Below, piece after piece: positions 13,379-26,568 of a stretch of 47,404 nucleotides of DNA. The notes beneath the pieces are model-generated. The model did not search any database and was not told the DNA's origin. It saw nothing but the letters and a program-made list of their open reading frames with translations. Location: the NCBI RefSeq assembly GCF_000455245.1, contig NZ_HG005170.1, positions 85,465-132,868 on the forward strand, given 5' to 3'. Every line of letters begins with the position of its first letter. Position 1 is the stretch's first letter. This DNA is from Nesterenkonia massiliensis (GTDB lineage: Bacteria > Actinomycetota > Actinomycetes > Actinomycetales > Micrococcaceae). Position numbers and translations under genes: made by a program.

Positions 13379-15439
13379 ATGGTGACCACACTGCCCTATG
13401 GATCCTGGCCCTCGCCCATTACCGCCGAACAGCTCGCAGTGGGCGGCAACCGCCTCGGTGGTCCCACCTGGGTGGGAGACCAGCTGTGGTGGACAGAGGG
13501 GCTTGCCGCTGAAGGGGGGCGGCAGGCGATTGTGCGCACCGCCGGAGCCGTGACCGCCGAAACCGAATCACCCGAGACCGTCACGGTACTGCCAGCGCCC
13601 TTTAATGCCCGGTCCCGGGTCAACGAATACGGCGGGGCCTCCTGGACCGCACTGACAGAGAACGACGACGCCGCCCCGCTGGTGCTTTTTGTGAACTTCG
13701 CTGACCAGCGGATCTACCGGTTCCGGGAGGGCGAGGAGCCTGCCCCGATCAGCCCTGTAGGGATGGAGGTCCCCGCGGCGCATGGTCCCTCGCTGCGCTG
13801 GGCTCAGCCCACACCGGTCACCCTGGCCGACGGGAGTCGGGAGGTCTGGTGGGTCTGCGAGCAGCACCACGATGCCCGTGATTCTTCCGGTGCCCCGCTG
13901 ATTGAGCGCTATATTGCCGCAGTTCCGCTGGATGGTTCAGCCGCTGAGGACGCTGCGGCGATCCGCCGAGTCACGCCTTCGGCACGTTTTGTGGCCCATC
14001 CTCGACTCTCTGCAGATGGGGCCCGGCTGGCGTGGATCAGCTGGGAGCACCCGCAGATGCCCTGGGACGGCACCGAACTGCACGTGGGGCAGCTCCAGGA
14101 CGGCGTCGTCGTGAACTCCACTGTGGTGGATGGGGATACTGGCACCTCGGTGCTGAACCCAGAGTGGGCTGATGCTGACACCCTGGTGTATGTGAGCGAC
14201 CGCAGCGGCTGGTGGAACCCGTGGCGTGTGAGCTTCGACGGTGCCGGTGCCAGTGAACCGGCGCAGCTGCTGCAGGATGAGCAGGAATATGCCGGTCCGC
14301 TGTGGCAGCTGGGCATGAGCTGGCTGGAGATGATCGGCCCGGACCGGGCATTGAGCATCCACGGCACTGCCACAGATTCCTTGGGTGTGGTGAACCTGGC
14401 GGAGGGCTCCGTAGTGGAACTGGGACTTGCCGCTACCGCCATCGGATCAGTGGCATACCGCGCCGATGGACTGGTGGCGGTCTACGGGGTGCAGGCAGAT
14501 GAGTTCGCCGCGATCTCCGTGGGTCAGCTCAGCACCGACGACGACGGCGCGCGCCTGGGGCAGCTGCGGACCATCCGCTCATCACGCCAGGACGCACCGG
14601 ACCCGGCGCTGCTGCCAGTGCCGGAACCGATTACCGTCACCACCGATTCCGGGCAGGAAGTCCATGCGGTGCTCTACCGGCCGCGGCAGGAGGGCTTCGC
14701 TGCGCCGGAGGCTGAACTGCCGCCGTTCATCGCGCAGGTCCACGGAGGTCCGACCGCTAAGGCAGCCGTGGGGCTGTCCTTGGCGATTGCCTACTACACC
14801 AGCCGAGGAATCGGCGTCGTCGATATCAACTACGGCGGCTCCACCGGCTTCGGGCGGGCCTACCGCGACAGGCTCAAAGGGCAGTGGGGTGTGGTAGATG
14901 TGGAGGACACGGTGGCGGTGATGCGGCACCTGGTGCGGGAGGGAATCGCCGACGGCGCCCGGCTCGGCATTGAGGGCGGATCCGCCGGCGGCTGGACCAC
15001 CTTGGCGTGCTTGACCCGCACCGACGTCTTCAGCGCCGGGGTCTCCAGCTTCGGGGTGGCTGACGCGGTGGCGCTGGCGCAGGACACTCACGATTTTGAG
15101 TCCCGGTATCTGGATCAGTTGATCGGCCGGTACCCGGAGGATGAGCAGATCTATCGCGAGCGGGCTCCGCTGAACCACGTGGACTCGCTGGAGTGCCCGG
15201 TGCTGCTGCTGCAGGGTGATGAGGACCGGATCGTGCCGCCGAACCAGGCCGAGAAGTTCCGCGATGCGATGGCCGCCAAAGGCATCCCGCACGCCTACCT
15301 CTTATTCGTCGGTGAGCAGCACGGGTTCCGCAAGGCGGAGAATATTGTGGCCAGTTTTGAGGCATCGCTGAGCTTCTACGGGCAGATCTTCGGCTTCGAG
15401 CCTCCGGGCGTCGCCCAACTGCAGCTGACCCGCGGGTAG
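13379..15439 (+). CDS. S9 family serine peptidase (acylaminoacyl-peptidase / prolyl oligopeptidase type)
   Basis: A 686-residue peptidase with an N-terminal beta-propeller (about residues 20-400) and a C-terminal alpha/beta-hydrolase domain. The triad is readable: Ser535 in G-G-S-A-G-G-W, Asp616 in D-E-D-R-I-V-P-P, and His648 in G-E-Q-H-G-F. The oxyanion segment H-G-G-P-T and the Y-G-G-S-T-G-F-G-R motif are typical of the S9C branch, which trims short peptides or removes N-acylated residues. No signal peptide is seen, so it is cytoplasmic. It is probably translated from a leaderless mRNA (TAGGCT 6 nt before the ATG). A palindrome of the DUF559 insertion begins 37 bp after its stop. Confidence 0.92.
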   Translation: MVTTLPYGSWPSPITAEQLAVGGNRLGGPTWVGDQLWWTEGLAAEGGRQAIVRTAGAVTAETESPETVTVLPAPFNARSRVNEYGGASWTALTENDDAAPLVLFVNFADQRIYRFREGEEPAPISPVGMEVPAAHGPSLRWAQPTPVTLADGSREVWWVCEQHHDARDSSGAPLIERYIAAVPLDGSAAEDAAAIRRVTPSARFVAHPRLSADGARLAWISWEHPQMPWDGTELHVGQLQDGVVVNSTVVDGDTGTSVLNPEWADADTLVYVSDRSGWWNPWRVSFDGAGASEPAQLLQDEQEYAGPLWQLGMSWLEMIGPDRALSIHGTATDSLGVVNLAEGSVVELGLAATAIGSVAYRADGLVAVYGVQADEFAAISVGQLSTDDDGARLGQLRTIRSSRQDAPDPALLPVPEPITVTTDSGQEVHAVLYRPRQEGFAAPEAELPPFIAQVHGGPTAKAAVGLSLAIAYYTSRGIGVVDINYGGSTGFGRAYRDRLKGQWGVVDVEDTVAVMRHLVREGIADGARLGIEGGSAGGWTTLACLTRTDVFSAGVSSFGVADAVALAQDTHDFESRYLDQLIGRYPEDEQIYRERAPLNHVDSLECPVLLLQGDEDRIVPPNQAEKFRDAMAAKGIPHAYLLFVGEQHGFRKAENIVASFEASLSFYGQIFGFEPPGVAQLQLTRG

Positions 15440-15475
15440 GCGAGCGGGGGCTTAGCTGGGTACGGGCGTTCTCGG

Positions 15476-15526
15476 GTGGACAATATGCTGCAGTTTTCCC
15501 CGGACTAAGCGCAGCAAATTGTCCAC
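15476..15526. repeat. Long palindrome upstream of DUF559 gene (copy 1)
   Basis: The 16-bp arms 15476-15491 and 15511-15526 (GTGGACAATATGCTGC / GCAGCAAATTGTCCAC, one mismatch) enclose a 19-nt loop. The right arm is nearly identical to that of the palindrome after the gene (16539-16593). Confidence 0.9.
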
Positions 15527-15591
15527 TTGCGTTTTCCCCAGATGCAGTGCCAGCGCAAGCGCTGCGGCGGACAACTCCTCATTCTCGAGGT

Positions 15592-16533
15592 ATGCGAAGC
15601 AAAGAACTACCCGCCCCGCTTCTGGGCCAGCCTCTCACCGCCGCTCGCTTGGCGAGATGGGGGATACCCCGGAATAGGTTGCTGCGCGCAGACCTCGTGC
15701 CGCTCGGTTCTGGCGTATATATACCGCGCCATCTAGCTGATGCTGCCGATGAAGAAGAGCTCTATCTTCTCCGTGCTCAGGGAGTAGCTAGCGACTACCC
15801 GCAGGGATGGATCTCCCACCTCTCCGCTGCGCGAGTGTTTAACTGTCCTCTTCCTAGGCGGTTGTACACACCAGAGGTACATATGAGCCACTCTCGTGAA
15901 ACGGACTTTCGGGTGCGGCGTCGTGATGTGGTGGGGCATCGCTCGGCCGTAAGTGAGGAAGAGGTAACGATCCATCAAGGAATACGGCTCACCTCTGCTG
16001 CACGCACCTGGTGCGATCTGGCAGCGTTCTGTGGCGTAGACGATCTAGTGGTCGCCGGAGATCACCTCGTCCGTATACCGAACCGCCGCTATGAGGGGCG
16101 CGCTGCACCCTATTGTTCACTGGTCCAACTACGAGCTGCCGTCGAAGGCCGCAGAGGTTTTAGAGGAAGACCTCGAGCTGTCGCTGCTCTGACGATGATT
16201 AGAGTTGGCGCAGACTCGCTCCCCGAAACCAAGCTACGGCTGAAGCTAGTAGGGAGCGGCCTTCCGGAGCCCGTCCTGCAGGTACCCCCGACTCCCGGTG
16301 CGCCCAGGGGGTACCGCGCGGATATGGGATACCCGCTGTGGAAGATTGCGATTCAGTACGACGGCGGGGTCCACTTCAATCCGCAGCGGGCTCGGGAGGA
16401 TCAGCGTCGCGACAACGCATTCCTTGCCCAGGGCTGGCTAGTGTTGCGCTTCAATCGGGAGGACTTCCGGGACGGATTTCGCGAGGCGGTTCAGCAGATA
16501 GGGGCCGCGATCAGGTTGCGGGCACAGGACTAA
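15592..16533 (+). CDS. DUF559 (Vsr-like endonuclease fold) protein with AbiEi-like N-terminus
   Basis: A 313-residue protein. The N-terminal half resembles the winged-helix AbiEi-type module (A-A-R-L-A-R-W-G-I-P-R-N-R-L then G-V-Y-I-P-R), and the C-terminal 110 residues are a DUF559 domain of the PD-(D/E)xK superfamily: Y-R-A-D-M-G-Y-P, I-Q-Y-D-G-G-V-H-F, D-Q-R-R-D-N-A-F-L and G-W-L-V-L-R-F. The usual E in the V-E-Y-D-G motif is Q here. Function is unproven. The ATG at 15592 starts the conserved part; an in-frame ATG at 15547 is possible. Codon use and GC (near 50% in places) are clearly lower than in the neighbours, and near-identical palindromes flank the gene, so it was probably acquired by transfer. 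Confidence 0.72.
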   Translation: MRSKELPAPLLGQPLTAARLARWGIPRNRLLRADLVPLGSGVYIPRHLADAADEEELYLLRAQGVASDYPQGWISHLSAARVFNCPLPRRLYTPEVHMSHSRETDFRVRRRDVVGHRSAVSEEEVTIHQGIRLTSAARTWCDLAAFCGVDDLVVAGDHLVRIPNRRYEGRAAPYCSLVQLRAAVEGRRGFRGRPRAVAALTMIRVGADSLPETKLRLKLVGSGLPEPVLQVPPTPGAPRGYRADMGYPLWKIAIQYDGGVHFNPQRAREDQRRDNAFLAQGWLVLRFNREDFRDGFREAVQQIGAAIRLRAQD

Positions 16534-16538
16534 TCATG

Positions 16539-16593
16539 GAGTGGTCAATTTGCTGTGTCTCACGCGACCTCAAGCGCAGCAAATTGACCACTC
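16539..16593. repeat. Long palindrome downstream of DUF559 gene (copy 2)
   Basis: The 18-bp arms 16539-16556 and 16576-16593 (17 of 18 pair) enclose a 19-nt loop, starting 5 bp after the stop codon. The right arm shares GCAGCAAATTG(A/T)CCAC and the preceding AAGC with copy 1. Confidence 0.9.
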
Positions 16594-17008
16594 TAGCGGG
16601 GGCAAGTGGATGACAAGGCACAGCTCACGGCAGTTCCCCATCGACGCGTCGCTGGAGCATCCAGCCAGGCGTTAGATTCCGTTTACGCAGATGTCACGTG
16701 TCGTTGGGTGTTTCTTGCGCAGCACCGGCCGTGGCGGGGCCTAGATTTGGAAGTGTCAGAACACTGACCGGAAGGCCCACACGCTATGCCTTATGGCACC
16801 AGGGGCCGGTCCGGCCCCCAGCCGTTCAGCTGGCGAGGGGCTGACCGACCACCATCCGACTATCGATGCGGGGACACACCAGGTCCTGCAGCCGAGGCGG
16901 TAGAGGACGTCGAACTCGATCTTGGGGAAGATTTCGAGCTCGAAGCCGATACCTGCCCAGCTGTGGGGCCTTTTGCGTTCTGCGCGCCCTTTACTGTCTG
17001 GAGACATT
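16594..17008. other. 415-bp intergenic stretch before phoH2
   Basis: No convincing gene is seen. It holds a perfect 8-bp palindrome around one base (16802-16818, GGGGCCGG-T-CCGGCCCC) and an open frame at 16786-17061 that overlaps the phoH2 start but has poor coding character. The phoH2 promoter must lie here. Confidence 0.5.
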
Positions 17009-20699: not shown

Positions 20700-20749
20700 A
20701 AAAAGCGCCCCCGCATCCTGCAGAATCAAGGATGCGGGGGCGCTTTTTT
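20700..20749. terminator. Bidirectional intrinsic terminator between fumC and NUDIX gene
   Basis: The 20-bp arms 20700-20719 and 20729-20748 pair perfectly around a 9-nt loop, with A-run and T-run at the outer ends, so it can stop transcription from both sides. Confidence 0.93.
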
Positions 20750-26483: not shown

Positions 26484-26568
26484 GCAACCAGATGACCGGG
26501 CCAGAACCTGCGTTTGGGGCCCGGATTGCTCCGATAACGCAGGTTTCGGCCCGGTCAAACGTGGGCTA
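26484..26568. repeat. 85-bp palindromic repeat, copy 2 (upstream of GTPase and ABC-F leader)
   Basis: The same unit as 25142-25226. The 22-bp arms 26493-26514 and 26536-26557 match at 20 of 22 positions around a 21-nt loop. It lies between the divergent GTPase gene and the ABC-F leader. Confidence 0.92.

Follow-up and report, generated by a model that had tools for sequence, protein, structure and literature searches.

Organization of the Locus

The window, i.e., the whole analyzed stretch of 47,404 nucleotides of Nesterenkonia massiliensis DNA, contained a DUF559 gene placed between two long palindromes and neighbored, according to Pfam, by Peptidase_S9 and PhoH genes. The features of the locus were the following:

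13379..15439, + strand: S9 peptidase gene, the conserved upstream neighbor (Pfam Peptidase_S9, E = 6.9e-50)
15476..15526, no strand: upstream palindrome, a 51 bp core with weaker pairing reaching outward; member of an 11-copy family of the genome
15547..16533, + strand: DUF559 gene, an open reading frame with a likely start at ATG 15592
15604..16041, + strand: AbiEi-like N-terminal and middle part, approximately residues 20-165 (PADLOC AbiEi models, predicted structure)
16201..16524, + strand: Vsr/EDxHD-like nuclease domain, approximately residues 219-326 (Pfam, alignment, Foldseek, profile versus PDB)
16539..16593, no strand: downstream palindrome of 55 bp, starting 5 bp past the DUF559 stop codon, which ended at 16533

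The placement of the gene between the palindromes, the second of them 5 bp after the stop codon, had been proposed by a sequence-only reading of the window, and both inverted repeats were re-found at these coordinates above chance. The arms of the upstream palindrome were 16 nt long and 94% complementary with 19 nt between them; those of the downstream palindrome were 17 nt long and 100% complementary with 21 nt between them. The right arm that was said to be common to both was recovered as the direct repeat AAGCGCAGCAAATTG(T/A)CCACT. The identical 19-nt loops of the same reading were not found as drawn (19 versus 21 nt), but the start-to-start distance of the half-sites was equal, 36 nt in both palindromes. 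Seven half-sites with up to three mismatches were present in the window versus 0.72 expected, and none of 100 shuffles reached seven. Six hairpins scoring at least 13 were recorded in the real window versus a total of two over 10 Markov-resampled windows, none of which reached 17. The lower GC content attributed to the DUF559 gene was also confirmed (0.609 versus 0.666 for the S9 gene and 0.634 for the PhoH gene), and its GC3 was 0.596 versus 0.785 and 0.804, respectively.

Two other interpretations of the palindromes were rejected. An Rfam scan of positions 15200-17000 gave no match near a family cut-off, the single match being far below it (E 4.4); an RNA element was ruled out by this result and by the absence of a G.U bias. 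A complementarity of the loop to its own flanks was eye-catching in a few copies and was discarded after a permutation over 11 copies with four tests (reverse complement, p = 0.04 upstream and 0.007 downstream; direct repeats, 0.55 upstream and 0.014 downstream).

Elsewhere in the window, a third palindrome of 65 bp with the same build of long arms and a long loop was observed at 26493-26557, and only about 8 nt of its arms were, by eye, common with one family described here. A strong hairpin with A and T tails at 20700-20748, directly 3' of a fumarase C gene, was probably an ordinary two-way terminator.

The DUF559 Gene and Its Predicted Product

The conserved N-terminus MRSKELP in the homolog alignment suggested that the gene starts at ATG 15592. 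The protein matched Pfam DUF559 (PF04480), an entry that names no function, with E = 2.5e-5 and 24.6 bits versus the curated cut-off of 20.6; among 10 homologs scanned, two were above the cut-off and eight matched below it. The nuclease part of DUF559 is presumably related to Vsr. The PADLOC AbiEi models matched residues 31-165 of the window protein with E = 5e-8 to 6e-5. No AbiEii nucleotidyltransferase toxin gene was adjacent to the DUF559 gene, and for the five DUF559 proteins scanned, PADLOC returned no matches other than AbiEi.

The structure was predicted with a mean pLDDT of 83. The best Foldseek match was the catalytic domain of I-Bth0305I, an EDxHD homing endonuclease (3r3p; probability 1.00, TMt 0.74, E 0.12), TnsA followed weakly behind, and no match had E of 0.001 or better. 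A profile of 14 homologs searched against PDB matched the endonuclease-like protein 3hrl (E = 1.5e-4) and 3r3p (0.33), as well as unrelated chains, gamma-tubulin complex component 4 (0.007) among them. The residues E227, D259, H276 and D285 were invariant in all 14 aligned homologs and may be read as the EDxHD motif, after the family name used in PMC3943268. Based on these models, the gene product is likely an AbiEi-like part fused to a Vsr/EDxHD-type nuclease.

Matched Palindromes at DUF559 Loci

A covariance-model search of 149 genomes of the host's family resulted in matches in 10 genomes besides its own at E <= 0.1. Among 13 matched loci viewed, nine held similarly built palindromes with different arms, and four, all weak, did not. 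One match, in G023, lay directly upstream of that genome's own S9-linked DUF559 gene. A hairpin scan of 49 DUF559 loci (19 from named genomes and 30 from a genome search, the window's own included) showed many matched pairs on both sides of the gene, with arms differing between taxa. A further 40 loci brought the set to 89, from which seven were dropped because of a missing flank or match, leaving 82 usable.

Each locus was scored by comparing the 260 bp that precede the gene with the 260 bp that follow it and taking the highest ungapped similarity, with thresholds of 18 and 15. Matched flanks were recorded at 62 of the 82 DUF559 loci at the threshold of 18 and at 69 at the threshold of 15, leaving 20 and 13 loci below, respectively; these loci include syntenic orthologs and are not independent. 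Usable flanks were available for 14/19 named-genome loci, and 12 of the 14 scored at least 18. The control genes behaved differently: 0/29 PhoH loci reached 18 (one locus dropped), and 1/29 NnrE/D loci reached 18 and 3/29 reached 15 (one dropped). Mismatched pairs of DUF559 flanks gave 7/600 and 28/600 at the two thresholds. S9 peptidase loci were meant as a third control and scored at least 18 in 5/12 and at least 15 in 8/12 cases (8 of 20 dropped for want of an S9 gene); this control was spoiled, because the 3' flank of the S9 gene is the site of the unit and solo palindromes lie on both sides of the S9 gene in several genomes. A stricter hairpin-pair method gave 33/64 for DUF559 (5/69 dropped) versus 0/29 for PhoH, 0/29 for NnrE/D and 2/12 for S9. 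Thus, the outcome named beforehand as adverse, DUF559 genes mostly without palindromes, was not what the survey showed.

The same counts bear on the simplest alternative, that ordinary host palindromes such as terminators or RNA hairpins lie near DUF559 genes by chance. The position of several copies in intergenic DNA directly past stop codons would suit it, but it is contradicted by the two control genes taken together (1/58 loci at or above 18 versus 62/82), by gene-specific arms, and by the long spacers, the lack of a G.U over A.C excess and the lack of an Rfam match near cut-off. We therefore regard it as extremely improbable.

DUF559 homologs were also found in plasmid and phage collections (five plasmid-collection records and 11 phage records, with 10 of the 11 phage matches spanning at most a third of the query). 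Six of these records were fetched; matched palindromes stood on both sides in three and on one side in three. The "plasmid" records appear to carry chromosome-like genes. Among the homologs observed, two from Tsukamurella (Mycobacteriales; L426, L427) had matched palindromes on both sides, and one from a phage-labelled scaffold (L428) had a matched palindrome on one side.

Unit-Specific Palindrome Arms and Their Correlation with the Protein

Of 88 loci scanned, 40 units had a strong hairpin on each side of the gene, and their arms were compared. The median arm identity was 0.88 within the 40 units versus 0.42 over 1560 between-unit pairs, and an identity of at least 0.75 was reached by 88% of the former and 1.5% of the latter. 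All four DUF559 paralogs of the window's own genome (L112, L231-L233) had matched, mutually different palindromes. The arms had a median length of 23 nt and the spacer of 19. In some other taxa (L101, L102, L104, L234), the paired feet of the palindromes started with CGTCGAG. Over 111 unit palindromes read in gene orientation, 49 G.T and 47 A.C mismatches were counted; such a balance, without a G.U excess, is as expected for DNA rather than RNA.

The arms followed the protein. For 38 units with one open frame, protein and arm similarity were correlated (Mantel r = 0.35, none of 2000 permutations as high), in agreement with the covariation that had been suggested as a check, although kinship was ignored and shared ancestry alone would yield such a correlation. 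The median arm similarity was 0.42 below 35% protein identity (394 pairs) versus 0.98 above 70% (four pairs). In several pairs of orthologous units, e.g., L112 versus L120, L125 and L234, or L247 versus L248, the two palindromes of one unit were more alike than the orthologous palindromes, which suggests concerted change. In near-identical pairs such as L238 and L239, the unit's own palindromes were not closer than the orthologs.

Dispersed Copies of the Palindromes

A half-site scan of the window's own genome (G000, 2,672,431 bases) revealed 11 paired sites of the window family, and nine of them were solo, away from the gene. A covariance model built from the 11 copies recovered all of them and no further site below E = 0.4; of 1528 first-look candidates, 150 were scored. 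The gap between the 15-nt arms was 20 or 21 in all copies, and the arms were conserved when most of the spacer was not. Several copies were found in intergenic DNA directly past stop codons. One copy (L003:1501-1551; C2:201715-201765) formed an in-frame part of NnrE/NnrD, within the linker that joins the YjeF_N domain to the Carb_kinase domain, and was absent at this place from the 26 relatives in the alignment. The sequence-only reading had named palindromes lying equally often away from DUF559 genes as evidence against the unit. Taken literally, this was observed, as 9/11 copies were solo, but the arms of these solo copies are those of the local unit, a feature shared with REPINs.

In 29 other genomes of the genus, a 16-nt pattern with one mismatch found unpaired half-sites only, 0 to 3 per genome; the window-arm palindrome is therefore private to this species within the sample. 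The exact two-arm pattern had no match in genome-contig and viral-contig collections, from which the own or near genomes were possibly excluded.

Scattered solo copies were not peculiar to this genome. In the actinobacteria searched, cognate half-sites numbered about 9 to 58 per strand versus 0 to 5 where the units had other arms. GAGTTTTTGTCCAS was found exactly (forward/reverse) 58/58, 36/40, 49/47 and 20/13 times in the Arthrobacter genomes of L094, L095, L096 and L110, respectively, 1/1 in the Arthrobacter genome of L093, whose unit has other arms, and not at all in seven others; the reversed control gave 0. With up to three mismatches, GTCGAGTGARCAGAACACGCCG was found 30/29 times in the genome of L100 (Phycicoccus jejuensis), 10/12 in that of L098 and 13/11 in that of L109, versus 1 to 5 per strand in four genomes and 0 in six; its reversed control gave 1 in all. 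At the same stringency, nine genomes of the window's genus had GAGSGGCGGATTCTCCGAGCA counts between 13/9 and 26/23, versus 0 or 1 in total in eleven, with a reversed control of 0 or 1 in each genome.

Of 40 Arthrobacter copies retrieved, 38 were 63 bp and two were 62 bp long; the likeness of their outer 14 bases is a consequence of the exact pattern used to find them. The constant length of the copies combined with the drifting spacer suggests that the distance between the arms matters. In the 38 copies, the inner pairs T16-A48 and G20-C44 were invariant, and 18-46 and 19-45 covaried strongly (none of 5000 shuffles as high). Two more inner pairs covaried weakly, most others did not, and 24-40 went in the opposite direction.

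Such covariation would be welcome to a REPIN-like single-strand route, in which a lagging-strand hairpin is nicked and transferred by the enzyme, as by TnpA-REP, rather than copied by break repair. A layout like that of RAYT-REPIN, as outlined in PMC2817692 and PMC3116915, and the DNA-like balance of G.T and A.C mismatches are consistent with this route as well. The lack of significant covariation in most inner pairs and the opposite trend of one argue against it, as does the absence of a Y1_Tnp match in the genome (the HUH search covered PF01797 only). Nucleases of the Vsr/EDxHD fold hydrolyze DNA and form no covalent link, so that strand transfer would need host enzymes. On balance, the single-strand route seems doubtful.

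Cognate half-sites were also counted in nine related genomes. Genomes with an intact family-B gene (G011, G015, G027, G012 and G017) had 44, 49, 42, 39 and 37, respectively, versus 28, 27, 24 and 22 where the active site of the gene was deleted in frame (G020), the gene was decayed (G018), or it was absent among the DUF559 matches (G022, G021); this contrast is suggestive only, as the nine genomes are related and the pattern was taken from one genome of the intact group. Regarding the G020 gene (L259), it was observed that the in-frame deletion takes the core of the nuclease active site and that the N-terminal part is kept.

Presence, Absence and Inheritance of the Units

In six other genomes of the genus, the DUF559 gene adjoined the same S9 peptidase gene, and a fresh insertion between S9 and phoH was thereby ruled out. 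Twenty stretches upstream of PhoH were viewed; an S9 gene was present in 12, followed by DUF559 in five and by DUF255 in seven. Five of the seven S9 sites without DUF559 held a solo palindrome with arms belonging to another of the clade's DUF559 units. Many units were syntenic across the genus, which implies that movement is rare and that the counted loci are not independent.

Empty sites had been proposed as a check, and sites with and without a unit were indeed found in close relatives, in both directions. A 1.2-kb unit in G019 corresponded to about 97 bp at the same place in G002, and within these lay a solo palindrome belonging to a different family, units of which occur in both G019 and G002 (L252, L254), so the "empty" site is not a clean pre-insertion allele. 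Conversely, a decayed unit of G002 corresponded to about 58 bp without a palindrome in G019. At one intergenic site, five species including G015 retained a solo palindrome that was missing in G011 and had collapsed in G012; the presence/absence of this solo in G015 versus G011, the best case of its kind, looks like a deletion, since five species keep the palindrome. The presence/absence pairs that were viewed showed no convincing target-site duplication.

Other arrangements were noted. At one site shared by G003 and G009 (L242 and L244), the DUF559 genes had opposite orientations, and their palindromes shared the outer foot and differed inside. In L223, L224, L225, L226 and L227, the S9 gene was bracketed by solo palindromes of another DUF559 family; the same palindrome spacing was found in L378 and L379.

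The kept positions raise the possibility of a regulator, i.e., a domesticated AbiEi-type repressor for which the upstream palindrome is the operator, the dispersed palindromes are host-kept regulon or nucleoid-type sites, and the nuclease part is used otherwise. The AbiEi-like part detected by PADLOC is in line with it, as is the end of the upstream palindrome, which lay a median of 38.5 bp before the estimated start in the 40 units; AbiEi proteins autoregulate via paired inverted repeats, according to PMC7319586. Synteny of many units between species and the orthologous solo palindrome kept in five of them fit too, and the upstream palindrome and vertical inheritance are accounted for as well by a regulator as by the partnership of nuclease and palindromes preferred below. 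A regulator alone leaves unexplained the matched second palindrome past the stop codon, the arms differing between paralogs and species, and the invariance of the putative nuclease residues in all 14 homologs; the palindrome copy in a coding linker also speaks against it. The regulator was judged unlikely; together with the single-strand route, it is the chief competitor of the preferred reading.

Proposed Partnership of Nuclease and Palindromes

Based on all analyses, it seems fairly probable that the DUF559 gene and its two palindromes form one unit of a widespread partnership between a nuclease and its palindromes, spread by break repair. Most of the DUF559 genes examined were flanked on either side by matched palindromes specific to the gene; solo copies of the palindrome, with nearly constant arms and spacing and a mostly drifting spacer, were scattered over the genomes examined; and the arms were alike within a unit and followed the protein. 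Binding, cutting and copying of the palindromes by the protein are inferred from sequence.

We proposed that two protein molecules would sit on the two arms through the AbiEi-like part, because binding to paired 23-bp inverted repeats is known for AbiEi proteins. According to PMC7319586, AbiEi and Rv2827c bind such pairs 3 or 13 bp apart, and I-Bth0305I is described in PMC3943268 as dimerizing on a target of nearly 60 bp; together with the median arms of 23 nt and the spacer of 19, these dimensions led to the proposal of two molecules on the arms with the nuclease at the spacer or hairpin. The Vsr/EDxHD part would then nick or cut at the spacer or the extruded hairpin. Much like homing or the spread of REPINs, repair of the break could place a copy of the palindrome, or of the entire palindrome-gene-palindrome, at other sites and could also homogenize the arms. 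The upstream palindrome may double as the operator of the DUF559 gene. The units would now be mostly vertically inherited, with decay and occasional movement.

The sequence-only reading had called the locus a candidate single-gene mobile or selfish unit. The part concerning a unit is favored by matched flanks, arms tracking the protein, and sites with and without the unit; the locus is not a fresh insertion. The chances appear even that the partnership is a phylum-wide class, in which an AbiEi-guided Vsr/EDxHD nuclease recognizes its own dyad-symmetric palindrome and spreads and homogenizes it, sometimes along with its own gene, by break-stimulated copying. Several independent enzyme-palindrome pairs per genome would then be possible, and the class would be an actinobacterial, non-Y1 counterpart of RAYT-REPIN.

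If DUF559 genes travel or persist with private palindromes, a class of actinobacterial intergenic repeats would be accounted for. A testable substrate for DUF559 would be available, and the REPIN-type arrangement would have arisen at least twice with unrelated enzymes. The many natural enzyme-site pairs of differing specificity could be used to study the recognition of long inverted repeats by an AbiEi-like module. Many actinobacteria possibly carry an unrecognized family of self-spreading or domesticated elements.

Comparison with Known Systems

The closest parallel is RAYT (TnpA-REP)/REPIN, as characterized in PMC2817692, PMC8049555, PMC3116915, PMC8266576 and PMC3733652. Both share a nuclease gene between its own palindromes, dispersed non-autonomous intergenic copies, co-evolution of enzyme and palindrome, and long vertical inheritance. 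The differences concern the enzyme, which here appears AbiEi-like plus Vsr/EDxHD and has no Y1 domain; the palindrome, here one long-armed inverted pair spanning about 50-85 bp, with about 19 nt between the arms and no GTAG head; and the hosts, which here are actinobacteria, a word that occurs 0 times in the main text of PMC3733652. The Y1 transposase PF01797 had 0 matches in the whole G000 genome (the positive control was found in 5/14 genomes), and no GTAG or CGTC tag was seen by eye at the palindrome foot in the 11 aligned G000 copies or the 40 Arthrobacter copies. Hence, the system is not a member of the RAYT/REPIN family, and the likeness is one of working principle; the earlier claim of an analogous layout with an unrelated enzyme is partly supported.

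CGTC-tagged REPs are likewise dispersed palindromes, and in some taxa the feet of the palindromes start with CGTCGAG here, but this CGTC lies within a paired arm of about 20 bp and is absent from the window copies. According to PMC3733652, the tag of those REPs is unpaired, the stems are 8-9 bp, the loops are 4-5 nt, and a dedicated transposase is lacking. The partnership would provide, for another repeat group, one candidate answer to the question raised there of which enzyme, if any, serves repeats that have no known transposase.

The EDxHD homing endonucleases (I-Bth0305I) resemble the predicted nuclease in fold and in the four conserved acidic/histidine positions, and their dimer on a target of about 60 bp is a fitting model. 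They differ in that a full copy of the putative target lies on each side of the gene here, and there are many solo copies besides. AbiEi antitoxins of the AbiE type IV toxin-antitoxin system share the AbiEi-like part and the likely type of site, a pair of inverted repeats of about 23 bp, whereas here no AbiEii toxin gene is adjacent, a nuclease is fused, and the repeats stand on both sides and are dispersed. IS-derived MITEs are also short non-autonomous palindromic repeats; here, no parent transposase was found in a search limited to PF01797, no convincing target-site duplication was seen, and the spacer is not conserved between copies.

No report of DUF559 genes with palindromes was found in the openly licensed PMC literature. 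As the enzyme, the palindrome and the host group all differ from those described and no earlier description was found, the system is proposed to be of a new kind. Grouped by working principle, it may count beside RAYT-REPIN rather than apart from it.
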